Assembly: GCF_024612015.1 (NCBI RefSeq)
Contig: NZ_CP102512.1
Coordinates: 5,084,001-5,148,000, forward strand
Reading direction: 5' to 3'
Source: Streptomyces sp. CA-210063
GTDB lineage: Bacteria; Actinomycetota; Actinomycetes; Streptomycetales; Streptomycetaceae
Length of the DNA: 64,000 bases
Under the pieces are notes generated by a model that did not search any database, was not told the DNA's origin, and worked only from the letters and a program-made list of their open reading frames with translations. Shown here piece by piece: positions 4,155 to 51,836 of this stretch (its first letter is position 1; each line of letters opens with the position of its first letter). Both the position numbers and the translations under genes were made by a program.

Positions 4155-4198
4155 GTGGCGTTCCTCCTCCGGGAGTTGATGAGCGACACCACGGCCGG

Positions 4199-10775: not shown

Positions 10776-10803
10776 GACGGGTCTCCTCCGAGAAGCGGCG
10801 ATT

Positions 10804-10849
10804 AAACGGAACGTCGTCCCGTTTGACGATACGGAACAGCGTCCCGTTT
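10804..10849. promoter_or_regulatory. Two tandem TetR-type operators between akr and tetR
   Basis: Two 21-bp imperfect palindromes (10804-10824 and 10829-10849), 25 bp apart, share the form AAACGGAAC-NN-CGTCCCGTTT with the core GGAAC...GTCC. They sit between the divergent aldo/keto reductase and TetR genes and probably overlap both promoters. Confidence 0.75.
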
Positions 10850-10897
10850 AACAAGGCCGGTGGATGTGGCACGCTCGGCGGCGGAGGGAGCGAAACG

Positions 10898-11515
10898 ATG
10901 GACGACAGCGGGAACGGCGGCGGGAGCGGTGGCGCGGTCGCGGGCCAGGACGCACGGGCGGCCAGGCCCAAGAGGGCGGACGCCCGGCGCAATCAGGAGA
11001 CGCTGCTGGACGCGGCCGCAGCGGTCTTCGTCGAGTCGGGCGTGGAGGCGCCGGTGCGCGACATCGCGGCCAGGGCCGGCGTCGGTACGGCCACGATCTA
11101 CCGCCACTTCCCGACGCGCGCGGATCTCATCGTCGCCGTCTACCGGCACCAGGTGGAGGCCTGCGCCGAGGCCGGCCCGGCCCTGCTGGCGGCCGGCCCC
11201 ACCCCGTACGCCGCCCTGGGGAGCTGGATCGACCTCTTCGTCGACTTCCTCGTCACCAAGCACGGCCTCGCCGCCGTGCTCCAGTCCGACAACGCCGGCT
11301 TCGAGGCCCTCCACGCCTACTTCCTCGACCGGCTCGTGCCCGTGTGCGGCCACCTGCTCGACGCCGCGGCCGAGGCCGGCGAGATCCACTCCGACGTCGG
11401 CGCCCTCCAGCTCATGCGCGGCGTCGGAAACCTGTGCATCGGCGCCGAGAACAATCCCCAGTACGACGCCCGCCGACTGGTCGGACTCCTCATCGCGGGG
11501 CTGCGCCGCAGGTGA
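10898..11515 (+). CDS. TetR/AcrR-family transcriptional regulator
   Basis: This 205-aa regulator has an N-terminal helix-turn-helix (ETLLDAAAAVFVESGVEAPVRDIAARAGVGTATIYRHFPTRADLIVAVY) and a ligand-binding C-terminal domain with LHAYFLDRLVPVCGHLLDAAAEAGEI. The start at 10898 is chosen because GGAGGG lies about 9 bases upstream; an in-frame extension to 10823 runs into the operators. It probably represses itself and the divergent reductase. A Gly-rich, likely disordered segment precedes the DNA-binding domain. Confidence 0.88.
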   Translation: MDDSGNGGGSGGAVAGQDARAARPKRADARRNQETLLDAAAAVFVESGVEAPVRDIAARAGVGTATIYRHFPTRADLIVAVYRHQVEACAEAGPALLAAGPTPYAALGSWIDLFVDFLVTKHGLAAVLQSDNAGFEALHAYFLDRLVPVCGHLLDAAAEAGEIHSDVGALQLMRGVGNLCIGAENNPQYDARRLVGLLIAGLRRR

Positions 11516-11623
11516 CGGCGCCGCCGCCCGGCTCCGGGAAACGAAGTCGTGTGATCACTCCCGCACCGCACAGGGCTGTGCTACATTCGCATGAAGTGGC
11601 AGTTTTGGTTACCAGAGGCTTCT

Positions 11624-11661
11624 GAGTGCTCTTCGACCTTCCGTCGACGAGCACTCTTTTT
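11624..11661 (+). promoter_or_regulatory. Terminator-like hairpin in the cold-shock leader
   Basis: An 8-bp perfect stem (GAGTGCTC/GAGCACTC) extended by an inner TCGAC/GTCGA stem is followed directly by TTTTTG. It resembles an intrinsic terminator but lies about 110 bases upstream of the cold-shock start, with no gene ending just before it. That fits attenuation or a temperature-sensing 5' leader. Confidence 0.55.
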
Positions 11662-11769
11662 GTTTCCGGGACTTTCCGGGGTTTTCAGATCTCCCGTCGG
11701 GTCAAATCGTTGCTGCGACGCCGGGTCCGCAAGGTGCGGTTCCGGGCACTGCATCAAGGGAGTTACAAC

Positions 11770-11973
11770 ATGGCATCTGGCACCGTGAAGTGGTTCAACG
11801 CGGAAAAGGGCTTCGGCTTCATCGAGCAGGAGGGTGGCGGCCCGGACGTGTTCGCCCACTACTCGAACATCGCCACCCAGGGCTTCCGCGAGCTTCAGGA
11901 GGGCCAGAAGGTGACCTTCGACGTTACGCAGGGCCAGAAGGGCCCGCAGGCCGAGAACATCGTTCCCGCCTGA
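11770..11973 (+). CDS. Cold-shock protein (CspA family)
   Basis: This 67-aa single cold-shock domain protein is an RNA chaperone. RNP1 is KGFGFIEQ and RNP2 is [12 protein letters not shown] at 11770 is chosen because it gives the exact family length and the usual [17 protein letters not shown] start; the open frame upstream is leader. It differs at only a few positions from the second copy at 23098-23301. A hairpin terminator and then a DEAD-box helicase follow, a common cold-shock pairing. Confidence 0.96.
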
Positions 11974-27917: not shown

Positions 27918-29417
27918 ATGCGTGTGCTGTTGGCGAGTTACGACTCGCGCGGGGGCGTCGAACCGGTGGCGGGACTCGCGATGCGGTTGCGTGAACTCGG
28001 CGCGGAGGTGCGGGTGTGCGCGCCGCCGGACGAGGAGTTCGAGCGGCGGCTGGCCGGTGTCGGCGTACCGCTGGTGCCGTTCGGCCGGTCGGTGCGCGCG
28101 CTGATGACCGCGGCGACGTCGCCGACGGCGGACGGCGTGCCCCGGCGCGCGGCCGAGCTGCTCGCGCAGTTCGACACGGTCGCGGAGGCGGCCGAGGGCT
28201 GCGATGTGCTGGTGGCGACCGGTCTGCTCCCGGCCGCGGCCTGCGTGCGGTCGGTGGCCGACAAACTGGGCATCCCCTACGTGTACGCGAGCTTCCAGTC
28301 GATCTCCCTGCCCTCGCCGCACCACCCGCCGATGCAGCGGCCGGGCCGGCCGTTGCCCCCGGACGTGACCGACAACCGCGTGCTGTGGGACCTGGACGCC
28401 CGGAGCGCGAACGAACTGTTCGGCGAGGTGATCAACGCCCACCGGGAGTCGGTCGGCCTGCCGCCGGTCGACGACGTCCGCGACCATGTCTTCACGGACC
28501 GCCCGTGGCTGGGGACGGACCCGGTCCTGGATCCGTGGCGGAAGCGGGTGGGCTCCGCCTTGGGGGTGGGGCGGGGGGCGGGGGGCTCCGCCTCAGGTTT
28601 GCGGGAGAAGCGGTCGGGCTCCGCCTTGGGGGTGGGGCGGGAGGCGTCGGGGTCCGGCTCGGGGCTGGGGCAGGGGCCGCCGGACTCGGCCTCGGGGCTG
28701 GGGCAGGAGGCGCCGGGCTCCGCCTTCGGCCCGGGGCAGGAGGCGCCGGACTCCGCCTCGGGGCTGGGGCAGGAGGCGCCGGGCTCCGCCTCGGGCCCGG
28801 GGCAGGAGCCTGACCTTGATGTCGTACAGACCGGTACGTGGATCGTGCCGGATGAGCGCCCGCTGCCGGCCGGGCTGACCGCGTTCCTGGACGCCGGCAC
28901 ACCCCCGGTGTACGTCGGCTTCGGCAGCATCGTCCTGGGCGGCGCGGAGGACGTCGCCCGGGCGTCCGTCGAGGCGATCCGCGCGCACGGCCGCCGCGCG
29001 GTCGTCTCCCGCGGCTGGGCCGGCCTCGCCCTCGTCGACGACCGGGACGACTGCTTCGTCATCGGCGAGGCCAACCACCACGCGCTGTTCCGCCGGGTGG
29101 CCGCCGTCGTCCACCACGGCGGCGCGGGTACGACGACCGCGGCCACGTGGGCGGGCGCGCCGCAGGTGGTGGTGCCCCAGTTCGCGGACCAGCCATACTT
29201 CGCGGGGCGGGTCGCCGACCTGGGCATCGGCGTGGCCCACGACGGCCCGGCCCCGACGTTCGAGTCCCTGTCGGCCGCGCTGGAGGTGGCCCTGGCGCCC
29301 GAGACGCGTGCCCGGGCGACCGCCGTGGCCGGGATGGTCCGTACGGACGGGGCGATGGTGGCGGCGAAACTGCTCCTTGACACGATCAGCCAGGATGGAG
29401 GGTCGGTGTCCACGTGA
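27918..29417 (+). CDS. rgt: GT1 glycosyltransferase, probable rifamycin glycosyltransferase
   Basis: This 499-aa UDP-sugar-dependent GT-B enzyme has an N-terminal acceptor domain (MRVLLASYDSRGGVEPVAGLA) and a C-terminal donor domain with VYVGFGSIV and the signature VHHGGAGTTTAATWAGAPQVVVPQFADQPYFAGRV. The upstream RAE and the downstream helR point to inactivation of rifamycins by glycosylation. Relatives are about 400-430 aa; the extra length here is eight 11-residue Gly/Ser repeats (213-300) inserted in the inter-domain linker. The catalytic domains look intact. The last codons run into a second repeat family. Confidence 0.82.
   Translation: MRVLLASYDSRGGVEPVAGLAMRLRELGAEVRVCAPPDEEFERRLAGVGVPLVPFGRSVRALMTAATSPTADGVPRRAAELLAQFDTVAEAAEGCDVLVATGLLPAAACVRSVADKLGIPYVYASFQSISLPSPHHPPMQRPGRPLPPDVTDNRVLWDLDARSANELFGEVINAHRESVGLPPVDDVRDHVFTDRPWLGTDPVLDPWRKRVGSALGVGRGAGGSASGLREKRSGSALGVGREASGSGSGLGQGPPDSASGLGQEAPGSAFGPGQEAPDSASGLGQEAPGSASGPGQEPDLDVVQTGTWIVPDERPLPAGLTAFLDAGTPPVYVGFGSIVLGGAEDVARASVEAIRAHGRRAVVSRGWAGLALVDDRDDCFVIGEANHHALFRRVAAVVHHGGAGTTTAATWAGAPQVVVPQFADQPYFAGRVADLGIGVAHDGPAPTFESLSAALEVALAPETRARATAVAGMVRTDGAMVAAKLLLDTISQDGGSVST
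28554..28817 (+). repeat. In-frame minisatellite, 8 x 33 bp, inside rgt
   Basis: Eight consecutive 33-bp units encode the 11-residue pattern S-A-S-G-x-G-Q-E-A-P-G with variations (for example SASGLGQEAPG, SALGVGREASG). It lies between the two GT-B domains and keeps the frame throughout. Confidence 0.9.
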
Positions 29418-32384: not shown

Positions 32385-33935
32385 GTGCAGGAACACGAGA
32401 AGGCCGACCACTCCGGGGCCGCCGGCAGCCGTACGGCGGCCCGCAAGCCCGCTGCCGCCACGTCCGCCGCGTCCGCGCAGCTGCGTGACCTGCTCGGCCT
32501 GCCGGCCGGTGCGGGCAACGGCGCGGTCGTCCAGATGCTCCGCAAGGCCGGTCACCCCTGGGCGCAGGAACAGCACGAGCACAGCGCCGGATGCGGCCAC
32601 CAGGAGAACGAACAGCGACTCGGACCCGCGGAGCAGCCCGCGGTGCAGCGCTCCGCCGTCCACGACGTGCTGCGCACGTCCGGCCGGCCGCTGGACGACG
32701 ACACCCGCACCGACATGGAAGCGCGTCTGGGCGCGGACTTCTCCGACGTACGTATCCACAACGACGCCGCGGCCAAGGCCTCCGCCGCCGAGGTCGGCGC
32801 CCGCGCCTACACCAGCGGCCACCACGTCGTCCTCGGAGACGGCGGCGGGGACAGGCACACCCTGGCCCACGAACTCACCCACGTCATCCAGCAACGCCAA
32901 GGCCCGGTCGCCGGCACCGACACCGGCAACGGACTGAAGGTCTCCGACCCGTCCGACCGCTTCGAGCGCGAAGCCGAGGCGAACGCCGGCAGGGCCCTGG
33001 CGGCCGACCCCCAAGCCGCTCCGAACCTGCAACGCCAAGTGGCGCCGCCCTCCCACCCGTCGGCCCCCCTCCCCTCCGTACAGCGCGTCTACGACCACGA
33101 GAACCCGGAAAACCCCCAAAACGTCATGACGACCGAGCATTGGGAACGTCAAGCAGGGGTGGTGGGCCAGGACGGTAAGGCCACACCAGCGATGGTCAAG
33201 ACCAAAGCGGAACTCATGGCCGCGGCCAAGCCGCCGAAGAAGGGTAAGGGCAAGGCCAAGAGCAGTAAGGCGTCCCCGGGGCGCACGATGGATGAAATCA
33301 TCCAGAGGGTCGGCCCGGATCTCCTGCGTCAACTCCAGGCCAAATCGCCGACGTCCGGAAAGCTGGAGCTGTTCAGGGCCATGAGCGTGGGCGAGGCGCG
33401 GAGCGCCCTGGAATACTGGGGCAGCACCGCACAGATTGACGCCCTGCAATACGTGGCGGACGACGGTGGGTCATCGAAGGAGTTCAAGACCAATCACAAG
33501 GGCATGACCGTCGGTGCTCACCTGGGCGACAAGGGTCAGGCCGAGTCATACCACAACATGGAGGGTGACGCGTATCAAGTCCTGCTGAAGTTCACACTGA
33601 AGCCTGGCGCACACGAGCTTCTTTTCGATCCCGAATACATGGCCCTCGGCCCGAGCTATAAATCCGAACTGATCCGCAAGGCGAATGGCGGAGAATACCA
33701 GAATGCGAACCCGAACGAAGGAACGCTGCCCGGTTACCTCGGAGTGAAGCCAGAAGAAAACGAGCCGTTCAGTGTGGCTGTCGCACAGGGCGCCAACGGC
33801 AAGAGGGGAAGGGAAGTCGGCCCGAGCCAGCTGCTGTTCCAGCTGTTCGTCGAGAACGTAAGCCTGGTGACCAACAAGTCGGGAACGCCCCTGCCGGGTG
33901 AAACCGCGGCGGCCGGCGCTGCCCTGGCCGTGTGA
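32385..33935 (+). CDS. DUF4157 (eCIS-core) protein with toxin-like C-terminal domain
   Basis: This 516-aa protein has a DUF4157 domain (about 90-172) with the metalloprotease-like motif HELTH (162-166) in TLAHELTHVIQQ, preceded by FSDVRIHNDAAA and YTSGHHVVLG. DUF4157 marks extracellular contractile-injection cargo and polymorphic toxins. A linker (200-295, ending in Lys-rich KPPKKGKGKAKSSKAS) leads to a C-terminal domain (about 300-505) with LFRAMSVGEARSALEYWG and GAHLGDKGQAESYH, which resembles ADP-ribosyltransferase-like toxins, though I cannot confirm the fold. The base composition of the C-terminal half looks lower in GC than its neighbours. No injection-system structural genes are present. 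Start is GTG. Confidence 0.75.
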   Translation: MQEHEKADHSGAAGSRTAARKPAAATSAASAQLRDLLGLPAGAGNGAVVQMLRKAGHPWAQEQHEHSAGCGHQENEQRLGPAEQPAVQRSAVHDVLRTSGRPLDDDTRTDMEARLGADFSDVRIHNDAAAKASAAEVGARAYTSGHHVVLGDGGGDRHTLAHELTHVIQQRQGPVAGTDTGNGLKVSDPSDRFEREAEANAGRALAADPQAAPNLQRQVAPPSHPSAPLPSVQRVYDHENPENPQNVMTTEHWERQAGVVGQDGKATPAMVKTKAELMAAAKPPKKGKGKAKSSKASPGRTMDEIIQRVGPDLLRQLQAKSPTSGKLELFRAMSVGEARSALEYWGSTAQIDALQYVADDGGSSKEFKTNHKGMTVGAHLGDKGQAESYHNMEGDAYQVLLKFTLKPGAHELLFDPEYMALGPSYKSELIRKANGGEYQNANPNEGTLPGYLGVKPEENEPFSVAVAQGANGKRGREVGPSQLLFQLFVENVSLVTNKSGTPLPGETAAAGAALAV

Positions 33936-35639: not shown

Positions 35640-36128
35640 TCAGCGCAGGGCGAGGACCATGACGTCGTACAGCGGGGAGTCAGGGAACGGCAGCTTCTCC
35701 CCCGCATGCTCGTACCCCCAGGTCTCGTACATGACCCGCAACCGCGGCCGCTCCCGGCGTACAAGCAGTTCAGCGCGCTTTTCCTGTCGCTGGCTCATCA
35801 ACTCGTCGTGCATGACCCGGGAGATGCCGCGCTTACGCCACCGCTCGCGGAGCATGTTCTCGCACAGCTTGAACGTCGACACGTCATCGCGAGCCGTGAA
35901 CCCGTAGGTGAAGCCGGCCACGTCACCACCGACATCGGCGACGACGCACCCCCAGCCACCAGCTGCGACATGACCTTCCAACCGTTCCTCGAAACGCTCC
36001 ATGGAGAAGAACGGATTGGTGGCGATGTCCTCCGCGTACACGTCGGCGTACACATCCAGGAGGGTTCCGCGGATCTCCGCCAGTTGTGCGCCGGTGTAGT
36101 AGCTGGTCGTCAGCAGGTCTACGGTCAT
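35640..36128 (-). CDS. GNAT-family acetyltransferase-like protein
   Basis: This 162-aa protein has a GNAT-like core (GWGCVVADVGGDVAGFTYGFTA, LCENMLRERWRKRGISRVMHDELMSQR, LRVMYETWGYEHAGEKLPF). The acetyl-CoA loop reads RERWRKRGISR and is less canonical than in its neighbour. It overlaps the XRE/TPR regulator by 4 bp and is co-transcribed with it, a frequent Streptomyces pairing. The substrate is unknown. Confidence 0.8.
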   Translation of the reverse strand: MTVDLLTTSYYTGAQLAEIRGTLLDVYADVYAEDIATNPFFSMERFEERLEGHVAAGGWGCVVADVGGDVAGFTYGFTARDDVSTFKLCENMLRERWRKRGISRVMHDELMSQRQEKRAELLVRRERPRLRVMYETWGYEHAGEKLPFPDSPLYDVMVLALR

Positions 36129-37405
36129 GGGGCCACCGCCTCGTATCGTTCGGAAAATTCCATCGCATCAGGTGCAGCACGGTCGACCAGTTCGTCCCGT
36201 AGCTGCCTCAGGCGTCCGCCGATCCGGGGACTGTGTACCTCCGGCAGAAGTGCGAGTGCTTCGTTGCCGACCGCCACGGCCTCCTCCAATTCGCCAGCCG
36301 CTGACAGGGCGCGACCGAGACGCACGTGGGAGGCAAGTTGATTACGCCGGTACGGGCCCGACTGCACGGCACGCAGGGACGCGCGGGCAGCGCCGACAGC
36401 CTTGTCGTACTGCCCCAGGTCCATAAAGCACAGGGCCGCCGTGGCTGACAACTCGCCGACGTTGTAGAACGCCAGCCATCTCTGCGGTTCGACCGGCTCC
36501 CGGTCGAACTCCTTCTCGACGCGTAACAGGGACCGTGCGCACCAGCCGGACTCACCCTGAAGCGCGTGCCCCTGGGCAACCCGCGAATGCAGCAGCGACG
36601 ACAGTTGCCCGTCCCTGCGCCCCCTGGTCTCCTCCAGCGCCGCGCGAGCGATCGAGACGGCCTCACCGCCATGTCCCAACTGCCATGCCTGGTGCGACAT
36701 CGACGACCAGATCCGAGCCTGGAGCGGCTTGTCCCGGCCCAGCAGGGCGTAGCGCAACCCGGCATCCCACCAACGTCGGGCCTTGTCCTGCTGACCCGCG
36801 TCGAAGGCGAACCACCCGGCGCTGGTGGCCATTTCACCGAGCGCTCGGTGGAGACGCACCTCCACGTTTCCGCCGTACGTGCAGCGACGGGCAGCATCTT
36901 CTACGTACTTGATGTACCGCGCCGCGATGTCCGACAGCTGCCCTCCCCCGTGCACGTCGTCGATCTGGTGAAGCCTCGCGGCGGCGGCCTGCACACGGTC
37001 CACGTCGCTCACACCGAGCCGCCCCGACTCCGGCAGCGGCGGCAGGGCGAGCAGACTTCCGGTCAGGCCGATGATGAACTGACGGCGTCGCACGGGCACA
37101 TCCTGGGGCGGGGTGCGGGTTCTCCTCCGCACGGTAACTCCCTCGCCCTGTGAGGCGGGAGCCCGAAAACCGAGTTCTTCGGCGGGCCGGCCGAACACCT
37201 CCTCCAGCGGGATACGGCTGCGGTCCCTCAGCCAGGAGACCCTTCCGCTCAGCCAGTAACCGACGAGGCGCGCGCTGCAATTGCCGGGCTGACGGGTGGT
37301 CCGCTCTGCCGCCGCGTTCACAGCCTCCGCGAGGCCTTCCCTCGTGAACCCGTACTCGGTCATGAGCCGTCGCAGCGTGAGATTCGGCTGGTGTTGAGCC
37401 GACAT
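36125..37405 (-). CDS. XRE-type regulator with TPR domain
   Basis: This 426-aa protein has an N-terminal helix-turn-helix (LTLRRLMTEYGFTREGLAEAVNAAAER, then SARLVGYWLSGR), a central basic-hydrophobic segment VRRRQFIIGLTGSLLALPPLP resembling an export signal, and a C-terminal TPR-like region (150-420) with many paired helices such as AALCFMDLGQYDKAVGAARASLRAV. Streptomyces has many such orphan regulators. Codon 294 is TTA (36524-36526 on the minus strand), so it may be bldA-dependent like the lanthipeptide genes on the other side of the divergent promoter. The ATG at 37405 is chosen over in-frame upstream starts. Confidence 0.82.
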   Translation of the reverse strand: MSAQHQPNLTLRRLMTEYGFTREGLAEAVNAAAERTTRQPGNCSARLVGYWLSGRVSWLRDRSRIPLEEVFGRPAEELGFRAPASQGEGVTVRRRTRTPPQDVPVRRRQFIIGLTGSLLALPPLPESGRLGVSDVDRVQAAAARLHQIDDVHGGGQLSDIAARYIKYVEDAARRCTYGGNVEVRLHRALGEMATSAGWFAFDAGQQDKARRWWDAGLRYALLGRDKPLQARIWSSMSHQAWQLGHGGEAVSIARAALEETRGRRDGQLSSLLHSRVAQGHALQGESGWCARSLLRVEKEFDREPVEPQRWLAFYNVGELSATAALCFMDLGQYDKAVGAARASLRAVQSGPYRRNQLASHVRLGRALSAAGELEEAVAVGNEALALLPEVHSPRIGGRLRQLRDELVDRAAPDAMEFSERYEAVAP

Positions 37406-38470: not shown

Positions 38471-38665
38471 ATGGCCGACACGCAGGTCGCAGGTCGTAGA
38501 CCGTCCGCCGGGCGAGCCAGCCTGCATGACGGTTCCTTGGCGTGCCTGACGCGGTATCCGCGCAGCCAGTTGCATGCAAGTCCTTGGCAGCCGGGTGCGG
38601 GGGTCCCGCGCTCCCCCGTCCGCGCCTCCCGTGGACGGCCCAACCATCCCTTCGGAGGTACTGGA

Positions 38666-38812
38666 ATGGCAATCGCGACGACCGAGACGGCACCAATCAC
38701 CGACGACTGGCAGCTCACCATCGCGATCACGGACGCGCCGATGCCGGTAGCCGAGGACTGCGACACCAGCGACGGGTGCGAGTCCACCTGCGCCTCCTCC
38801 TGCACGAGCTGA
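38666..38812 (+). CDS. lanA: FxLD-type lanthipeptide precursor peptide
   Basis: This 48-aa peptide has a leader of about 28 residues with DDWQLTIAIT, a variant of the F-x-L-D leader motif in which F is W and D is T, and a core with four Cys (C32, C38, C42, C46) and eight Ser/Thr (VAEDCDTSDGCESTCASSCTS). The core pattern DGC-x-x-TC-x-x-x-C matches FxLD-family precursors. LanB would dehydrate Ser/Thr and LanC would close thioether rings. Residues D36-G37 form the Asp-Gly pair most prone to succinimide formation, so D36 is a candidate target for the PCMT-like methyltransferase. A GGAGG site is seven bases before the ATG. Confidence 0.88.
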   Translation: MAIATTETAPITDDWQLTIAITDAPMPVAEDCDTSDGCESTCASSCTS

Positions 38813-38885
38813 CCCACACGTCGGAACCGGTGTGGGCATGGCCTACCGCCCTGCCCACACCGACCTAGCCGAACGGGAACCCACG

Positions 38886-41800
38886 ATGAGGCAGACGAGA
38901 CTGCTCCAACGCAGTGACGCGCTCCTGCTGCGGGCCGCTGTCCTCCCGCTCACCACCCAGCAGACCCGCTGGCCCACCCTGGACGATCCGCCCGACTGCC
39001 GCCGGTGGCTTGCTGATATCTGGGCGCGCCCGCCGTTCGCTGCCGCAGTACGGGCTGCGTCTCCCCAACTCGCGCGAGCCGTCCACCACATCCTTGAGGA
39101 CGCCGACGTCCAACCGAAGCGGTTACGGAAGGCGACGACTGCAGTCGCCCGGTACCTCCTGCGCGCCGCTGGACGCCCCACGCCGTTCGGTCTGTTCGCC
39201 GGCGTGACCCCCGCGGAATCTGGTTCTGCCGAGGCCCGAGTGGGTACCGGCCATCGTGCCATCGCCCGCCCGGACACGCTCTGGCTCGACCATGTCCGCC
39301 GCGACCTCCAGCGGCGTCCTGACGTCCTTTCCCGCCTGACCTTGCAGGTCAACGACCTGGCAACCAGGCACGGCGACGTGTTGATGCTGCCCCTGTCCGG
39401 CGGCCGTATCGCGAGCGTTCCCATCACACGACCGCTCGCTACGGTCCTCGCGCTGGCCACGCGACACCCTGTTCCGTGCCAGGAGATCACCGATCAACTG
39501 ATCGCGCTGGGCGGCACGGCGGATCAGATCGCACGGCTCCTCACGGACACGTTGGAGGCGAGCTTTCTGATCAGCGACCTGTCAGCGCCACTGACGGAGC
39601 CTGACCCGTTGGGGCACATGCTGAGTGTCCTACGTTCCCACATGGATCACCTGAAGCCCGAAACAGCCGGTGTGCTCGACGACTTGGCCGCTGTTTGTCG
39701 GCTGCTCGCCGAGCATGACGTGGCAGACGATCCGGCCGCTGCACAGGTGCTGCGCGATACGGCCGAGCAGCGCATGAACGGCATCAGCGACCGAGGCCGG
39801 GTGCGACTCAGTGTCGACCTACGACTCGACGCGAGGGTTCGCATCCCAACGCCGCTGCTGGAGGAGGCCGAGCGAGCTGCGGTGGCGCTGCTCCGACTGA
39901 CCCGGAACGTGGGCGAGAAGCCTCTGTGGGCTGCGTACCACGGCCTGTTCTGGGAGCGGTACGGCGCCGGAAGCCTGATCCCGCTTCAGGATGCGGTCGA
40001 TCTGGCCGCTGGGGTGGGCCTGCCGGCCGACTTTCCGATGTCGCTGTGGCCAGAGATCACGTCGAAGGCACTTCCGCGCGATGAGCTGCTGATGGCGAGG
40101 GCGTGGCAGGCGGCGCTCACCGGCGCCCGGGAGATCCGACTCACGGACGCGGACCTCGATGAACTGTGCGCCCACACCAGCCGCGACGACGAGGCCATCG
40201 CCCCGCACGTCGAGATGGCGGTGCGCGTGCACGCGACGTCGACGCAGGCCCTGGACCAAGGTGAGTTCACCGTGTCCGTACGTCCCGCCTGGAGCACCGG
40301 CACGCTCACCGGCCGGTTCGCCACCGCCCTCCCCGACAGCGGCCTCGACGAGGTGTATCGACGGCTGCCCACCCTGGTCGACGGCGCTCTACCCGCCCAG
40401 CTCTCCTTCGCACCGCTCCATCCGCACGCCGAAAACGTAGCCCGCATCCCAGCTCTACTGTCGTACGTGATTCCCGTTGGCGAGCACCGGGACCCGGCCA
40501 ACGATCTGATCCCGCTCGATGACCTGGCGGTGATGTCGACGAGCAAACGGCTGCACCTGGTGTGCATCTCGCGGCGCCGTGTCGTCGAGCCGGTCGTCCT
40601 GCACCCGCTCGCGCTGGAGAAGCAGGCCCCGCCTATCGCCCGATTCATCGCTCTGTTGGGGCGCGGCTTCGCCACCGCGTGGACTCAGTTCGACTGGGGA
40701 CCTCTCGCGGCAGGGATGCCGTACTTACCGCGGGTCCGCTACCGCAAGTCGATCCTCTCCCCGGCCCGTTGGCGCCTGGCCGACGCCGACCTTCCGCCGG
40801 GGCCCTTCCAACCTGCCTGGCAGTCGGCCATGGCCGACTGGGCACGGATGTGGAAGTGCCCGCAACTCGTCGAGCTGCGGGACGACGACCGCACCCTGCG
40901 CCTGGACCTGAGCGAACCACTGCACGCCCGCCTCCTCCACAGCCACCTCCGGCGCCACGGCAACGCCGAACTGCTCGAAGCCCCCGACGAACAGGCCTTC
41001 GGCTGGATCGGCCACGCCCACGAACTCACGCTGCCGCTCACTTCGACCCGGCCGCCCCTGCCCCACCCCGACCTGACGTCAGCCCCGATCGTGACCAACC
41101 GGATGCTGCCGATGCCAGGTGACCCCCAACAGCCGTGGGTACAAGCCAAGTTGTTCACCCACCCGACGCTCATGGATCAGATCCTCACCCGCGGTCTGCC
41201 CGGCCTTCTCGGACCGCTGGGCGGCCCCAACAGCTGGTTCGTGCGCTACCGCACCGCGCAGGAGGAGGACCACCTCCGGCTGCGCATCGCCGCGCACAGC
41301 CCAGGGGAACACACGGCGGTGATACGGGCCGTCGCGCGCTGGGCCGCGAACCTACAGAGGGAATCCCTCATCTCCCGGCTCGTCTTCGACGGATACCGGC
41401 CCGAGTTCGGCCGCTACGGCACCGGACCGGCGTTGGAATCCGCCGAGGCCGTGTTCGTTGCCGACAGCGACGCGGCCCGGACCGCACTCACCGACCTGCC
41501 AGGCCTTGACCGGCACGTGCTGTGCGCACTCGGAATGATCGACACCGCCCGCGGACTCCTCGGTGGCGAGGAAGGCGTCCACTGGCTGGCCACCACACCC
41601 GCTCGTGGCCAGGGCCTGCTCAGCGTCACCCGCCAGACGCTTCACCACACCCGTACTGAAGCCGTCCCACAACGCCCAACCAGGACACCCCGCCTGTCCG
41701 CAGCGTACGAACAGCGCCGCATCGCCCTCACCGAGTACCGATCCCATCTCACCGACGAGCAGACTGGTCCGGTGCTGGAGTCGCTACTGCACATGCACCA

Positions 41801-41900
41801 CAACCGCATCATGGGCCCGGGCCGCGAAGCCGAGGCAGCATGCCGACATGCCGCCCGGCAGGCATGCCGCTCCCTCCTGGCGCAGGGGGCAGCACGGTGA
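38886..41900 (+). CDS. lanB: Class I lanthipeptide dehydratase LanB (full length)
   Basis: This 1004-aa enzyme uses glutamyl-tRNA to glutamylate Ser/Thr of the precursor and then eliminates glutamate to form dehydroamino acids. The N-terminal glutamylation part (MRQTRLLQRSDALLLRAAVLP, RAAGRPTPFGLFAGVTP) is fused to a C-terminal elimination (SpaB_C) domain from about 760 (WVQAKLFTHPTLMDQILTRGLPGLLG, WFVRYRTAQEEDHLRLRI). Codons 80 (39123-39125) and 614 (40725-40727) are TTA, suggesting bldA-dependent translation. It begins 73 bp after lanA and overlaps lanC by 4 bp. Confidence 0.93.
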   Translation: MRQTRLLQRSDALLLRAAVLPLTTQQTRWPTLDDPPDCRRWLADIWARPPFAAAVRAASPQLARAVHHILEDADVQPKRLRKATTAVARYLLRAAGRPTPFGLFAGVTPAESGSAEARVGTGHRAIARPDTLWLDHVRRDLQRRPDVLSRLTLQVNDLATRHGDVLMLPLSGGRIASVPITRPLATVLALATRHPVPCQEITDQLIALGGTADQIARLLTDTLEASFLISDLSAPLTEPDPLGHMLSVLRSHMDHLKPETAGVLDDLAAVCRLLAEHDVADDPAAAQVLRDTAEQRMNGISDRGRVRLSVDLRLDARVRIPTPLLEEAERAAVALLRLTRNVGEKPLWAAYHGLFWERYGAGSLIPLQDAVDLAAGVGLPADFPMSLWPEITSKALPRDELLMARAWQAALTGAREIRLTDADLDELCAHTSRDDEAIAPHVEMAVRVHATSTQALDQGEFTVSVRPAWSTGTLTGRFATALPDSGLDEVYRRLPTLVDGALPAQLSFAPLHPHAENVARIPALLSYVIPVGEHRDPANDLIPLDDLAVMSTSKRLHLVCISRRRVVEPVVLHPLALEKQAPPIARFIALLGRGFATAWTQFDWGPLAAGMPYLPRVRYRKSILSPARWRLADADLPPGPFQPAWQSAMADWARMWKCPQLVELRDDDRTLRLDLSEPLHARLLHSHLRRHGNAELLEAPDEQAFGWIGHAHELTLPLTSTRPPLPHPDLTSAPIVTNRMLPMPGDPQQPWVQAKLFTHPTLMDQILTRGLPGLLGPLGGPNSWFVRYRTAQEEDHLRLRIAAHSPGEHTAVIRAVARWAANLQRESLISRLVFDGYRPEFGRYGTGPALESAEAVFVADSDAARTALTDLPGLDRHVLCALGMIDTARGLLGGEEGVHWLATTPARGQGLLSVTRQTLHHTRTEAVPQRPTRTPRLSAAYEQRRIALTEYRSHLTDEQTGPVLESLLHMHHNRIMGPGREAEAACRHAARQACRSLLAQGAAR

Positions 41901-43048
41901 GCGACTTCGTGCACGACCTGGGTCGCGGCCTCGCCGGGACCGCCCTCTACCAGGCAGTCCTTGCCCGGGACAGCGGGCAGTGGGACACAGTGGCCACCAC
42001 CACAGCGACTCTGGCGGGACAACCGGTGGCCGTCCATCCCGCTGGTGCGAGCCTCTATCGCGGGGCACCGGCCGTGGCCTACGTCCTCCAGACAGCGGGC
42101 CACCCGGCTTACCGCTCCGCACTCGGCAGCCTCGATGACGCGCTCGCCAAGCTCGTACGCACACGCCTCGCGGACGCTCATCGCCGAATGGAGACAGGCC
42201 GCCCACCACGCATGTGGGAGTACGACCTGATCTCAGGCCTGACGGGACTGGGTGCACTGCTTCTGCACCGAGGTACGCAACCGGCACTGCTCGACGATGT
42301 CCTGCGCTACCTGGTCCGCCTCCTCCAGCAGGCGATCACGGTCAACGGCGAGGAAGTACCGGGTTGGTGGACCTCGGACAGCCCGAGCGGTCGGACCGAC
42401 GCTGCTTGGCCAACAGGGCACGGCAACTTCGGCATGGCGCATGGTGTCGCCGGGCCCATCGCCCTCCTTGCCCTGAGCACTCGCGCCGGGCACACCACTG
42501 CCGGTCAACTCCCAGCCCTCACGGACATCTGCCGTCTGTTGGAAGAGCGAGCGCACTGCTTAACCAACGGCGCCGTCTCCTGGCCGGAGACCGTCACTCT
42601 CGACTCATGGATCAACAGATCACCCGTACCGGCCCGCCCCGGCAGACCATCTTGGTGCTATGGCACACCCGGCATCGCACGCGCCCTACAACTCGCGGCA
42701 ATCGAGTGTTCGCGTACGACGACCCAACGCCTGGCCGAGGACGCCCTCATGACCTGTGCCTCTGATCCCGAACAACTCGCCCACGTCGACAACGCCACGG
42801 TCTGCCACGGCTGGGCCGGAATCTGCCTCGCGGCAGAACGCTCGGCCGCCGACACAGCGCAGGACAGCGCACTCCGACGGGTTCTGCCGTCTCTCCACTC
42901 CCATTTCGCCACTCACGTGGCCAAGCACCCGCTCCCCGAGACCGCCGGACTCCTGACCGGTGCGGATGGAATCCTCCTCGCTCTCCACGACCTGAACGCC
43001 ACCCGCGCTACCGCCCCCGCTTGGGATACCTGTCTCCTCCTCGACTGA
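41897..43048 (+). CDS. lanC: Lanthipeptide cyclase LanC
   Basis: This 383-aa zinc enzyme adds Cys thiols to dehydroamino acids. The zinc ligands are C254 (WCYGTPG) and C303-H304 (VCHGWAG); the helix with GNFGMAHGVAGPIAL is the usual LanC repeat. GTG at 41897 overlaps the lanB stop. Codon 222 is TTA (42560-42562). The 10-bp gap to the methyltransferase keeps the operon tight. Confidence 0.92.
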   Translation: MSDFVHDLGRGLAGTALYQAVLARDSGQWDTVATTTATLAGQPVAVHPAGASLYRGAPAVAYVLQTAGHPAYRSALGSLDDALAKLVRTRLADAHRRMETGRPPRMWEYDLISGLTGLGALLLHRGTQPALLDDVLRYLVRLLQQAITVNGEEVPGWWTSDSPSGRTDAAWPTGHGNFGMAHGVAGPIALLALSTRAGHTTAGQLPALTDICRLLEERAHCLTNGAVSWPETVTLDSWINRSPVPARPGRPSWCYGTPGIARALQLAAIECSRTTTQRLAEDALMTCASDPEQLAHVDNATVCHGWAGICLAAERSAADTAQDSALRRVLPSLHSHFATHVAKHPLPETAGLLTGADGILLALHDLNATRATAPAWDTCLLLD

Positions 43049-43058
43049 AAGAGCCAAG

Positions 43059-44264
43059 GTGAACAACACCCCCGCCCTCGACGACCTCCGCAACCAGCTC
43101 GTGGACGAGATCATCGCCAAACGCCCGCTGCCCGCACCGATCGAGCAAGCCCTGCGCACCGTCCGCCGCGACCTCCACCTGCCCGGCCTCAACCAGGCCG
43201 ACGCCTACACGAACCAAGCCGTCACCATCGAGGACAACCCCAACGGCCCCCTGGCCCTGTCCTGCGCCTCCGTGCCCTCCACGGTCGCGATGATGCTGGC
43301 CCAACTCAACCCCCAGCCCGGCGACCACATCCTGGAGATCGGTGCCGGCACCGGCTACAACGCCGCCCTCCTCGCCGAACTCGTCGGCGCCAAGGGACAG
43401 ATCACCACCATCGACATCGACCCCGGAGTCGCCCTGCACGCCCGCGAGGCCCTCAACCGCACCGGCTACGAAGACGTCAGGGTCATGGAACGGGACGGTC
43501 TGAAGGGCGCACCCGAGCATGCTCCCTACAGCCGAATGATCGCCACCGTCGGTCTCTGGGACATCCCCGCCCCCTGGTGGCAGCAACTCGCCGACGGCGG
43601 CCGACTCGTCCTCCCCCTCCGCTGGCGCGGCCAGACCCGCTCCATCGCCCTCACCCGCCACGGCAACATCTTCGTATCCGACGACATGGAACTCTGCGGA
43701 TTCGTCCCCATCGTCGGCCAGACCGGCGAACGCACCACCGAACTGGCCAACGGCACCGTCCGCCTCCACCACGACCAGGACCAGCCGGTCGACCCCGACC
43801 GGCTGGGCGAGGTGTTCTCCACCCCGCTCACCGAGCAGTGGTCGCAGACGCGAGTAAGCAGCCAGGAAACCTTCGACGGCATCTGGCTGCGTGCCACAGC
43901 CTCCGACGACACGGTCTGCCGTATCGAGGTCACCAAGCAAGCCTTGGCGGAAGAAACTGCACGACGCCCCGCCATCCCCAGCCGGAGCCCCGTCCTTGTC
44001 TCCGGCAACTCCCTCGCGTATCTCATCGCCAAGCGGGACGAGGCAGACCCCGAACTACGCTCGCAACTTGGCGCGGTTGGCTACGGCCCCGACGGAACGG
44101 CCCTAGCCCACAACCTGATCGCCCACATCACAGCCTGGGGGACCGCCCGCACGGCGTCACCGCGCATGACCGTCCATCCAGTAGACACGCCAGAGAGCGA
44201 ACTCCCCAGGGGGCATGTCATCGAGAAGGTCGATAGCCGCATGGTGCTGACAGTGCCCAAGTGA
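43059..44264 (+). CDS. FxLD-system PCMT-like methyltransferase (LanS type)
   Basis: This 401-aa SAM-dependent enzyme has an N-terminal protein-L-isoaspartate O-methyltransferase fold with the SAM motif ILEIGAGTGY (91-100) and a family-specific C-terminal extension from about 250. In the characterised Streptomyces olivaceus system (OlvSA) the homologue methylates an Asp in the lanthipeptide, which closes to a succinimide and opens to isoaspartate, a backbone beta-amino acid. The start is GTG. No transporter, leader protease or immunity gene follows, so those functions must be encoded elsewhere. Confidence 0.88.
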   Translation: MNNTPALDDLRNQLVDEIIAKRPLPAPIEQALRTVRRDLHLPGLNQADAYTNQAVTIEDNPNGPLALSCASVPSTVAMMLAQLNPQPGDHILEIGAGTGYNAALLAELVGAKGQITTIDIDPGVALHAREALNRTGYEDVRVMERDGLKGAPEHAPYSRMIATVGLWDIPAPWWQQLADGGRLVLPLRWRGQTRSIALTRHGNIFVSDDMELCGFVPIVGQTGERTTELANGTVRLHHDQDQPVDPDRLGEVFSTPLTEQWSQTRVSSQETFDGIWLRATASDDTVCRIEVTKQALAEETARRPAIPSRSPVLVSGNSLAYLIAKRDEADPELRSQLGAVGYGPDGTALAHNLIAHITAWGTARTASPRMTVHPVDTPESELPRGHVIEKVDSRMVLTVPK

Positions 44265-44679
44265 TCCCAGCAGACCGACTGAGTTACAACTTTCTCCACT
44301 GAACTCTCAAGGCGGCTCGCTCCGCTCCCCGCGCGCGGCCCGGCCCCCGGCCGGGCCTGCGCTCCTGTCTCCGCCCCGCTCCAGCCCGGCCGGCGCCCGT
44401 GCCGCGCGCACAGCAATTAGCCGCTTGCCGTCAGAGAAGGGGCACGTCGCGGCTGGTGCGGTCGGCTCCACGGCTTTACGGAGCCACTTTGGCGCGAGCC
44501 TCGCAGATCATGGCCCCAACGTCGTGCTTTACCGGGCAGGTCCACAGACTGCCCGACGCGCCAGAAGCTTACGGGGACATGATCACTCGCGCCAAAGCAG
44601 CGCCACCCCAAAGCCGCTCCGCCGACCTCTGCGGGGCACTTGGCGAGCGATCAATTTGGGCCCGGTGCCCCTGGCGCCT
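44265..44679. other. Gap between lanthipeptide operon and IS remnant
   Basis: This stretch starts with a GC-extreme segment (44315-44400: GCTCGCTCCGCTCC, then CCGGCCCCCGGCCGGG) able to form hairpins, of a kind I associate with Streptomyces plasmid and island junctions. The rest, to 44680, has no gene I can support; short frames with PEAYGDMITRAKA-like content may be decayed remnants. Confidence 0.5.
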
Positions 44680-45786
44680 GCGCAGGCCGGTGGCGCGGGC
44701 GCCTCGGATGCGGTCCTCGCAGCGGGCCCGCCTGCGGTGACGCAGTTCGAGGCTGGCGAGCTGGCCGCCTTTCGTGTTGGTCGCGAAGCAGGTCAGCCGT
44801 AGTCCGTCGAGGTCGGTGAGGCGCAACTGGGCGCCGGGGTGCGGGCGTTCCTTGCGGACGATCAGCCGCATGCCCGTGGGCCAGGTGGTCAGGTCGGGCA
44901 TGTCGGTGACCTCTGCGACCCAGGCTCCGGGCCGTTCGGTGCCGCTGGCGTCGTAGGCCGGCGTCCACGCCCTCTTCGGGATCTTCAGGACGGCCTGGTG
45001 GATGGCGTCGGTGATGGTCATTCCGACGGAATACGACAGCCACCGGCCCCGGCGGGAGAGCCAGTCCAGGAAGGCGTGGGTGCCGCCGCCGGAGTCGGTG
45101 CGGATCAGTGTCTGCCGTCCCCGCCGCAGGTGTTTGGGCAGTTGGGCCAGAGCGAGTTGGGCGGTTTCGATGTGGTCGGCGGCGGTGTTGGAGCCCGCGT
45201 TGCCAGGCCGCAGCAGGGCGGCCACCGGTTCCCCGGACCCGGCTGGGCCGTGGTCGACGAACGCGACGAGCGGGTGATGACCGAAGGTCTTCTTCCAGGT
45301 CGGGGTGGCGTCCTGCTTCTCGGAGTGCGCGAGGACCAGCACCCCGTCGATGTCCACGATCACCTGGCCGTCGGCGGCCGGACTGCTTGCCCCGGCCAAC
45401 TCCCAGACTCGCCGACGCACTTCGGAACGTGCGCCCCGGATCGCCGCAAGAGCTTTCGGACCGGACGCGGCGAGCGCGTCGACGAGGCGGGAGATGGTCG
45501 GATCGGAGGCCACCGGACCGAACACAGCCGGCTCGGCCCGCAGCATGCCGACGTCTGCCAGACAGTCGCCGCCGAGTGCGACGGCCAGCGCCACATCCAG
45601 CAGGATCTTGCCCGGATCGTGCACGGCCCGCGGCTTGCGCCACGGCGCCAGCGCCGCGGATATCGCGGCGTCCAGGCCGGACTTGCGGACCGTCTCGACC
45701 AGGAGCACGGCCCCGGCCTGGGCAACAACTCCACGGCCGCCGCCCTCGACACGGACACGCGGGTACGACCCGTTACTCTTCTTCAC
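44680..45786 (-). pseudogene. IS1380 transposase, C-terminally truncated
   Basis: From GTG at 45786 the frame gives the usual IS1380 start VKKSNGSYPRVRVEGGGRGVVAQAGAVLL and continues through QVIVDIDGVLVLAHSEKQDATPTWKKTFG and LIRTDSGGGTHAFLDWL, with the DDE Asp residues present. After RCEDRIRGARATGL the sequence departs from the family and reads RRQGHRAQIDRS, so roughly the last 80 residues, including the expected catalytic Glu region, are lost. The frame stays open by chance to 44569. It is probably inactive. Confidence 0.85.
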
Positions 45787-45911
45787 CTGGAGAGTGCTTC
45801 TTTCCTTGCAGTGACAGGACCCTCGACAAGTCCCATCGTTGCAGGTCAGCAGCACTCTCCATTTATTTGATCAAGACTCGGACAGGCCCACTCGCGAGGG
45901 CGCGCGGCTAG
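44680..45911 (-). mobile_element. Truncated IS1380-family insertion sequence
   Basis: The element keeps its 5' end and most of the transposase but its 3' end is missing at about 44680. No matching left inverted repeat is seen. The 5' flank (45785-45911) has a diverged second copy at 46335-46464, indicating rearrangement or an earlier, now lost IS1380 copy. Confidence 0.8.
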
Positions 45912-49748: not shown

Positions 49749-51836
49749 CTATGAACCGTCGGCGTCCCGCGCGGCAGCCGCGGCCGCCGTCACGTCCGTC
49801 AGCGTCCAGCGCTGGTTCGAGCCCGAGTTGGGCCACCACAGGCCGACGCCGGCGCCGTCGTTCGTGGACTGGCCGTAGACGTCGGGGAGTTGGCCGGTGG
49901 CGGCGTTCACCAGGGTCCAGGTGCTGTCGCCCGTCGAGGAGAGGATCCACTGGGCGGCCTCGTCGCGGGCGCCGGAATCGGCCTCGGCGACCAGGGAGCC
50001 GTCGCGGATCGCCAGGCGCTTGTCCGAGGCCGGCTCGGTCAGGGCGTAGCGGGTGCGGTTGTCCGTCGTGCCGTGGCCGATGCGGTCCAGCTGCCACTGC
50101 TGGCCGGTGCCGTCCGTGGCGTTCGGGGTCTTGATGACGAGGCTCTTGCCGTCAGGGGCGATCGCGAGGTTCTTGCCGCTCTGGACGCCCGTGAGGGTGT
50201 AGGTGTGGTCGTCCTGGAGTTCCGCCTGGGACTTCGCTACGCCGGAGACGCCCTTCACCAGGAACGAGGTCACCGACTGGGCCGGGACCGTGATCGTGGC
50301 CTGCTTGTCGGTCACCTTGACCGGCTTCTGGCGGATCAGCTTGCCGGCGGCGTCCGTGACCACCGGGGTGACCGTCGCGGTCTTCGCGACCTTGCCGAAC
50401 TTCGACAGGTCCACGGTCACCGCGCGGGACTCCGTGGTGCTGTTGACGTGGACGACCGTCGCCTTGTCGCCCTTCTTCGCGACCGCCGCCGTGCTCGACG
50501 TGTCGTTCGTCTTGATGAGGCGGTCGCCCGGCTTGATGTAGTGCGTGAAGTTACGGGCCGTGTCGAACTTGGTGTTCGTGTAGATGGGGCACGACTTCAG
50601 GGTGTCCGCCGAGGTGCAGGCGAAGGAGAGCTGGATCGAGCCCCAGTTGCCGCCCTTCGCGGACTCGCCGCCGGGCTTCATGTTGTCGTAGTCCTCGACG
50701 GGCTGCCAGAAGACCCAGGCCTGGGGCTCCAGTTCGCGGAGGTCGTCGACCATGCGCTGGGCGAGGCCGAGGCCGGGGCGCATGTCGGTGAAGCTCTGGC
50801 CGTCGCCCCAGTCGCCCTCCACCTCGCTCATCCACAGGGGCTTGTCGGCGGCCTTGGCGAGGTCGCGGACGGTGGTGCGCTGGCCGGTGCCGTAGGTGTG
50901 GACGTTCATCTGGCCGACCAGGTCGCGGACTTCCTGGGGGTAGGAGTTCCAGTTGGTGGCGAAGGTGCCCGGGTTCGTCTCGTCCATCGCGGAGATCTCC
51001 GCGTCGCTCCGGGACTTCTCCAGCACCGGGCTCAGCGCGCGCAGCACCTTCTGCTGGAGCTCGGGGCCGATGTGGGCGCCCTCCTGGCGGCCGCCGGTGG
51101 GCTGGCCGTCGGCGCCGAGCTTGGTGCCCCAGTAGTTGGTGTTGGGCTCGTTGAAGGGGTCAAGGGTGTCGACGTCGATGCCGTGGGCCTTCTCCAGGCG
51201 CTCGGTGGCGCCGACCAGGTACTTGGCGAAGTCGTCGACCGACTCCTCCTTCAGCTGGTCCTGCGACGCGTCGAAGCCGCCGGAGACGTAGCCGCTCTCC
51301 GTCATGAACCACGGCGGGGAGTTGCTGAACGTCTCCCAGTGGGTGATGTCGTTCTTGATGCGGTCGATCCACCAGCGCTGGGTGGCGTCGGCGTTCTTGT
51401 TCCAGTCGTTCTTGTCGTCGGCGCTCCACCAGTCGACGTCCTCGCGGGTGGTGCCCGCCGGGGCCTTCCACCAGCCCTCCACCGCGCCGCCGGCGCGCAG
51501 GTAGTCCTTGACGTCGGGGGCGTTGCCGCCGCCGATGTTGTAGCGGGCGATGTTGAGGTTCAGGCCGTCCTTGCCGAAGAGGAGGTCGGCGAGCTTCTCG
51601 CGTATCTCGGGCGGGTAGTCGCCGGTGGCGTTGGCGAACCAGACCAGGCTGGTGCCCCAGCCCTCGAAGCTCTGGCCCTTGTAGGAGGGGTCGGGGCTGA
51701 CCGTCACCGCAGCGGCGGCGGCTGCCGTGTCGGCGTGTGCCATCGGCAGGGAGGTCGTGGCCATGGCCGTTCCGGTCGCCAGGGCGGTGATGCCGATGGC
51801 CCCGAGGAGCCGTCTCGTACGGGTGCGGTGTGCCAT
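49749..51836 (-). CDS. GH30-type endo-beta-1,6-galactanase with ricin/CBM13 domain
   Basis: This 695-aa secreted enzyme probably hydrolyses beta-1,6-galactan side chains of arabinogalactan. It has a signal peptide (to about HADTAAA), a catalytic barrel starting FEGWGTSLVWFANATG with acid/base E230 (DPFNEPN) and nucleophile E338 (WMSEVEGD), a beta-sandwich (about 425-535), and a C-terminal ricin-type trefoil with QW motifs (GQQWQLDRI, AAQWILSS, NQRWTLTD). The layout matches the characterised S. avermitilis enzyme as I recall it. It is divergent from a LacI-type gene across a long palindrome. Confidence 0.88.
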   Translation of the reverse strand: MAHRTRTRRLLGAIGITALATGTAMATTSLPMAHADTAAAAAAVTVSPDPSYKGQSFEGWGTSLVWFANATGDYPPEIREKLADLLFGKDGLNLNIARYNIGGGNAPDVKDYLRAGGAVEGWWKAPAGTTREDVDWWSADDKNDWNKNADATQRWWIDRIKNDITHWETFSNSPPWFMTESGYVSGGFDASQDQLKEESVDDFAKYLVGATERLEKAHGIDVDTLDPFNEPNTNYWGTKLGADGQPTGGRQEGAHIGPELQQKVLRALSPVLEKSRSDAEISAMDETNPGTFATNWNSYPQEVRDLVGQMNVHTYGTGQRTTVRDLAKAADKPLWMSEVEGDWGDGQSFTDMRPGLGLAQRMVDDLRELEPQAWVFWQPVEDYDNMKPGGESAKGGNWGSIQLSFACTSADTLKSCPIYTNTKFDTARNFTHYIKPGDRLIKTNDTSSTAAVAKKGDKATVVHVNSTTESRAVTVDLSKFGKVAKTATVTPVVTDAAGKLIRQKPVKVTDKQATITVPAQSVTSFLVKGVSGVAKSQAELQDDHTYTLTGVQSGKNLAIAPDGKSLVIKTPNATDGTGQQWQLDRIGHGTTDNRTRYALTEPASDKRLAIRDGSLVAEADSGARDEAAQWILSSTGDSTWTLVNAATGQLPDVYGQSTNDGAGVGLWWPNSGSNQRWTLTDVTAAAAAARDADGS

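Follow-up and report, generated by a model that had tools for sequence, protein, structure and literature searches.

A four-gene class I FxLD-family lanthipeptide operon in Streptomyces sp. CA-210063 with a predicted aspartate modification

The operon, its enzymes and its precursor

The window analyzed here is a 64,000-nucleotide stretch of Streptomyces sp. CA-210063 (contig NZ_CP102512.1; G000:C1:5084001-5148000), whose whole genome is a single 10.86-Mb contig. Its positions 38666-44264 hold, all on the + strand and in a single operon, genes for a lanthipeptide precursor (lanA), a dehydratase (lanB), a cyclase (lanC) and a methyltransferase resembling protein-L-isoaspartate O-methyltransferase (PIMT), an order written A-B-C-M below. 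With a probability of about 0.87, the four genes form a complete class I lanthipeptide operon of the FxLD family, making a ringed peptide in which Asp36 is turned mainly to isoaspartate. Chance or mis-called genes were ruled out, since the four proteins all pass curated cut-offs (NCBIfam, Pfam) and 17 other loci share their gene order. Scans of the window with Rfam at gathering scores and for tRNAs were empty.

LanB is full-length and carries both the glutamylation and the elimination domain (PF04738, 590.6 bits; PF14028, 135.8 bits), and LanC is a separate protein (PF05147), the arrangement that defines class I. The LanB residues R93, R97 and T99 align with NisB R83, R87 and T89, its R798, R800, E840 and R843 with NisB R784, R786, E823 and R826, and its H969 and R974 with NisB H961 and R966, where NisB numbers were counted on the printed NisB alignment; these are active-site positions of NisB. 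In LanC, the stretches WCYGTPG and VCHGWAG (positions 253 and 302 of the 383-aa form) match the corresponding stretches of the solved LanC-like protein 8byk and are the zinc-ligand motifs, with Cys254, Cys303 and His304 within them. For lanC, the GTG start at 41897 is favored over 41840 because of the starts in relatives and because it overlaps the lanB stop by 4 bp (GTGA).

The methyltransferase scores 364.4 bits against TIGR04364 ('methyltransferase, FxLD system'; cut-off 320) over residues 9-397. A PIMT domain (PF01135) spans residues 12-221 and is followed by about 180 more residues, so that the 401-aa protein is a PIMT homolog with a C-terminal extension of more than 100 aa. A prior reading of the DNA from its sequence alone (the sequence-only reading) had described a two-part methyltransferase, which is apt only in the sense of two domains; a split by frameshift was ruled out by the single, uninterrupted open frame of 401 codons. 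The same reading had named a 48-residue Cys-rich precursor with full-length LanB and LanC, and these genes are all found as it described, with four Cys in the precursor, as is its assignment to an FxLD-type class I cluster with an aspartyl methyltransferase (TIGR04363, TIGR04364), Asp36 lying in the published TxDGC motif.

The precursor core is DCDTSDGCESTCASSCTS. In place of a literal F-x-L-D motif the leader has W15-Q16-L17-T18; the TIGR04363 model (FxLD family lanthipeptide) does not require the literal motif. Among the 18 A-B-C-M precursors, window included, the first residue of the leader motif is W in 10 and F in 7, with one outside the search pattern; the ten W-type sequences are the window precursor and its nine nearest relatives, and the nearest relatives carry WQLT or WELT. 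The protein database yielded four relatives besides the window's own sequence. When the five were aligned, the leader was variable, the stretch from D31 to S48 differed at one column, and one sequence had an additional C-terminal Asp. The precursor had no Pfam match, and a sequence search of it against solved structures returned weak, unrelated matches only. Its calculated monoisotopic mass is 4938.07 Da unmodified, and 4866.03 to 4793.99 Da for 4 to 8 dehydrations.

The conserved Asp of the TxDGC core is present in the window precursor as TSDGC, and Asp36 is likely, by its sequence context, to be the target of the methyltransferase. An iterated precursor profile run over 84 loci gave 50 matches representing 47 distinct sequences, 46 of which have the target Asp (T-x-D-G-C in 41, S-x-D-G-C in 1, T-x-D-N-C in 4), a count that is partly conditional, as the profile itself contains the Asp and the loci had been retrieved through resemblance in methyltransferase or precursor. 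The sole precursor without it, in locus L043 of S. griseus NRRL WC-3645 (9968-10117), has Tyr instead. The start codon following its ribosome binding site does not read into the core in frame, and searching out to 10 kb uncovered no gene for LanB, LanC or the methyltransferase. This precursor is likely an orphan, decayed relic, though an FxLD methyltransferase is present elsewhere in its genome. Separately, the stretch right after its stop codon resembles a tRNA 3′ end, where ARAGORN calls no tRNA. The sequence CGGAGGT ahead of the lanA start is shared with L041, L043, L044, L045 and L064.

An extra Cys ahead of the TxDGC ring is found in all 18 A-B-C-M precursors, and a Ser or Thr lies between the leader motif and this Cys in 17 of them, the eighteenth having no leader match by pattern. 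A ring joining Thr22 and Cys32 was considered and not adopted: 13 of 28 precursors from loci with the order M-A-B-C also have this Cys, five of them without such a Ser/Thr.

Table 1. Features of the cluster and its divergent neighbor (window coordinates)
Feature	Position	Strand	Basis or remark
NsdA-family TPR (tetratricopeptide repeat) regulatory protein	36125..37402	- (divergent)	NF053720 300.9 bits, cut-off 75
Ribosome binding site GGAGGT of lanA	38654..38659	+	Sequence
lanA, 48-aa FxLD-family precursor	38666..38812	+	ATG 38666, stop 38812; TIGR04363
TSDGC motif (T34-S35-D36-G37-C38)	38765..38779	+	Asp36 codon 38771-38773
RNA hairpin, lanA stop to lanB start	38828..38862	+	z -4.88, covariation, family test
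lanB, full-length class I dehydratase, 1004 aa	38886..41900	+	ATG 38886; PF04738, PF14028
lanC, cyclase, 383 aa	41897..43048	+	PF05147 119.2 bits; longer open reading frame opens 41840
fxlM / lanS_A, PIMT-like aspartyl O-methyltransferase, 401 aa	43059..44264	+	GTG start; TIGR04364, PF01135

Recurrence of the gene order and of the intergenic hairpin

The order A-B-C-M was found by tblastn in L041, L042, L044, L045, L064-L069, L071-L076 and L078, which with the window make 18 loci, the window's own order being taken from open reading frames and NCBIfam/Pfam matches. In a FastTree phylogeny of 57 methyltransferases, all 20 labeled A-B-C-M fell together in a clade of 25 with support 0.99, from which all 28 labeled M-A-B-C are absent; nine of the 57 had no gene-order label, and five of these are in the clade. 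The A-B-C-M label meant a LanC gene at most 400 bases upstream of the methyltransferase gene and no precursor just downstream, and two of the 20 so labeled (L070, L077) are without confirmed lanA and lanB. Gene order thus tracks methyltransferase phylogeny, in two lineages. The sequence-only reading mentions neither this pattern nor the lanA-lanB hairpin described below.

The same genome contains the other order as well. A second FxLD locus (L007 13135-18934, G000:C1:4957134-4962933), ordered M-A-B-C and scoring 47.2 bits with TIGR04363 and 492.8 bits with TIGR04364, has the identical set of four gene types, an Asp in the core and four core Cys. It differs from the window cluster in its 64-aa precursor, its FDLN leader and its core DTSDNC, where Asn follows the Asp, and its LanB, LanC and methyltransferase are 35-40% identical to those of the window, which is too little for a recent duplication. 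With one cluster per gene-order lineage in a single genome, both products could be compared within one strain. A different arrangement was seen in L048 (Frankia), where two different FxLD-type methyltransferases (3989-5200 and 10731-11969) flank one precursor, LanB and LanC.

Neighboring proteins were called in 19 loci (the 18 A-B-C-M loci and L043) and grouped by BLAST. LanB and the methyltransferase each formed a group present in 18 loci; LanC was called in 10 because overlapping frames had been dropped, tblastn finding lanC in the 17 others and the window having its own. Besides A, B, C and M, 14 groups were common to three or more loci. For nine of them representatives were searched with Pfam, and the other five, all small or antisense, were assessed by eye. 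Pfam returned helix-turn-helix (HTH)/DUF5753 regulators, HTH or TPR regulators, a histidine-kinase-like ATPase, a TPR protein, radical S-adenosylmethionine (SAM), NB-ARC/TPR, LigT-like and SPDY-domain proteins, and one group without a match. No transporter or protease was recognized among the 14 groups common to at least three of the 19 loci. The conserved unit is therefore the four genes, and the cluster is probably not truncated, the A-B-C-M order recurring in 17 other loci with no recognized shared transporter or protease group. The sequence-only reading had placed an incomplete cluster first among its options, which this recurrence does not support. In the window, a motif and hydrophobicity scan flagged no transporter-like protein from -12 to +14 kb. 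The scan is a crude test run on gene calls of our own, and a few of the loci covered are short (L068, L041); in 5 of the 18 A-B-C-M loci it did flag membrane proteins or an ABC (ATP-binding cassette) ATPase. The flagged genes do not make up one BLAST group. They are an ABC ATPase in L065, an amino acid permease in L073, and major facilitator superfamily (MFS) permeases in four loci. The nearest are the MFS gene of L078, which follows the methyltransferase gene by about 0.35 kb in the same orientation, and the ABC ATPase of L065, about 0.7 kb past that gene on the other strand.

As a separate observation, a radical SAM protein lies beside an NB-ARC/TPR protein downstream of A-B-C-M in L071 (1704-5972) and also in L069, L072 and L074; the pair is possibly a separate peptide-maturation system.

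Between lanA and lanB, the window sequence folds into a hairpin (z = -4.88) that recurs over ten A-B-C-M loci, window included, with z from -2.84 to -6.50. In the alignment of the ten, the hairpin is conserved with compensatory changes: 12 of 16 hairpin pairs have changes on both sides, and 91.8% of hairpin cells pair vs 74.6% in shuffles, falling to 38-47% when the partner was slid by 1-3 columns. A family test took the 75 bases from the lanA stop codon on, with a threshold of z < -2.5, and found 39 of 47 FxLD loci below it vs 1 of 94 control stretches, the controls being stretches further downstream and mostly coding. The relic L043 has no hairpin after its precursor (z -0.21). No clear U-run lies 3′ of the hairpin in the window, so that it may be either a partial terminator or a structure protecting the message. 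Other lantibiotic precursor genes are known to be followed by hairpins; a literature search, judged by titles, gave none on a lanA-lanB hairpin in the FxLD family.

Clusters of this type are common in Streptomyces and already named by databases. Of 295 genomes in the genus, 126 exceed the TIGR04364 cut-off, and the window methyltransferase as query found matches at E 1e-90 or better in 18 of 392 genomes (own genome included in both counts), the best other at 79% identity. A plasmid search matched 49 records, and in one of these the match spans at least 80% of the query; among the matches listed, 16 of 20 plasmid records have a gene annotated fxlM, and by these annotations the FxLD system sits on Streptomyces plasmids too. 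The nearest precursor, P0002 (17 member sequences), is 94% identical and is named 'FxLD family lanthipeptide' [Streptomyces] by NCBI. Its core is identical to the window's from D31 on, and it differs at a single residue close to the N-terminus, by an inserted Gly and at a single residue ahead of the core. Among published counts, the available text of PMC10787088 gives 1305 lanthipeptide clusters that include a methyltransferase of this sort, the TxDGC core motif being present in most of their precursors, and that of PMC7268733 describes the four largest class I precursor families as actinobacterial, with a conserved Asp and a PIMT-like methyltransferase alongside. The product, which the sequence-only reading had called undescribed, is new only as one more FxLD member; its type was named already.

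Proposed pathway and alternative explanations

In the proposed pathway, LanB would glutamylate core Ser and Thr residues and eliminate the adduct, and LanC would then add Cys thiols to form lanthionine and methyllanthionine rings. By analogy with OlvA, whose isoaspartate is located in the N-terminal loop that a methyllanthionine ring creates (PMC13001092, available text), the ring enclosing Asp36 would most likely join Thr34 and Cys38. The methyltransferase would next methyl-esterify Asp36 of the cyclized peptide, the ester would collapse to an aspartimide, and this would open mainly to isoaspartate. Both the order of the reactions and the isoaspartate are modeled on the work on OlvA and OlvSA, in which OlvSA acts only after OlvB and OlvC (PMC13001092, available text), and the TxDGC motif has been tied to Asp-to-isoaspartate conversion (PMC10787088, PMC13001092, available text). 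Isoaspartate and aspartate are equal in mass, so the absence of a +14 or -18 Da shift would not exclude isoaspartate. The sequence itself shows the genes with their families, the motif and the hairpin; we infer the ring pattern, the role of the hairpin, export and the biological function. The hairpin would most likely limit read-through into lanB or protect the lanA message, giving more precursor than enzyme. Genes for leader removal and for export, if any, would lie elsewhere in the genome.

Several points weigh against this interpretation. The precursor passes TIGR04363 narrowly, at 31.2 bits for a cut-off of 30, and its leader is without the literal motif of the family. Cys32, located ahead of the TxDGC ring, has no assigned partner. 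MFS permeases near 4 of the 18 A-B-C-M loci (L044, L065, L066, L078) make an exporter possible beside some relatives, and 8 of the 47 loci, L043 among them, miss the hairpin threshold. The Olv system, on which the chemistry is modeled, was compared through its published description.

The end product might instead retain the aspartimide (succinimide) at Asp36, as in lasso peptide and graspetide examples. The enzyme type is identical, and aspartimides are stable in some ribosomally synthesized and post-translationally modified peptides (RiPPs), as described in the available text of PMC13001092; the same text reports that in the one characterized lanthipeptide the aspartimide opened to 70-80% isoaspartate, and the residue following Asp36 in the window precursor is Gly, which together make a retained aspartimide unlikely. 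Quite improbable is a decayed or truncated remnant whose transporter, protease and immunity genes were lost through the downstream transposase. A DDE transposase gene does lie at 44569-45855, third-position GC of the cluster is lower than that of most flanking genes, and L043 demonstrates that such relics exist; set against these are four open frames with their catalytic motifs present, 17 other loci with the identical four genes and no recognized shared transporter or protease, and a precursor core that is conserved while the leader varies. We give least credence, close to none, to a methyltransferase that repairs isoaspartate to aspartate or acts on another substrate: the PIMT domain PF01135 and the naming of the nearest solved chains as protein-L-isoaspartate O-methyltransferases would fit such an enzyme, but the TIGR04364 cut-off is passed over nearly the whole protein, the C-terminal extension is typical of RiPP-associated enzymes (PMC10787088, available text), and the co-located precursor carries the target motif.

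A broader proposal joins two parts: that the A-B-C-M lineage is a self-contained unit without a dedicated exporter or protease, and that the hairpin is a family-wide RNA element setting the precursor-to-enzyme ratio. The peptide of that lineage may then serve within the cell, be set free when cells lyse, or be matured by housekeeping enzymes. We regard the joint proposal as doubtful, and the transporters near 5 of the 18 loci led us to lower our estimate of it slightly. In any case, the conservation of the hairpin and the lack of any recognized shared exporter offer concrete, testable leads on how the peptide is expressed and what becomes of it.

Flanking genes and comparison with known systems

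The divergently transcribed NsdA-family protein upstream of lanA is, from its sequence, a possible regulator of the cluster. It groups by BLAST with the upstream proteins of L041, L064, L066, L075 and L078; Pfam found HTH domains in some of these proteins and weak TPR matches in others. An NsdA protein is reported to be a negative regulator of rimocidin biosynthesis (PMC12243394, available text). Directly downstream of the cluster, the DDE transposase (PF13701) is followed by a gene-poor stretch of somewhat lower GC that reaches to about 49 kb. Third-position GC of the cluster genes is 0.75 to 0.90. In a look for island edges by flanking synteny among 31 genomes, the flank protein 27918-29417 had a match in its own genome only and the flank protein 49749-51836 in six, own included. 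A protein with an eCIS (extracellular contractile injection system) core domain (PF13699) and an HExxH motif is encoded at 32385-33935.

Compared with known systems, the cluster is closest in type to the FxLD family (TIGR04363/TIGR04364, fxlM), the cut-offs of which are passed by both precursor and methyltransferase, and departs from it in having WQLT where the family has FxLD. With the Olv system of Streptomyces olivaceus NRRL B-3009 (OlvA/OlvB/OlvC/OlvSA, lanthimiditide) it shares a class I dehydratase and cyclase, a PIMT-like methyltransferase with a C-terminal extension and a conserved core Asp, as that system is described in the available text of PMC13001092, PMC7268733 and PMC10787088. 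For the product studied there, the available text of PMC7268733 describes the mature form as unknown, and how the Asp modification serves function is left open in that of PMC13001092. Like OlvA, the window precursor would be expected to carry its isoaspartate inside a methyllanthionine ring.

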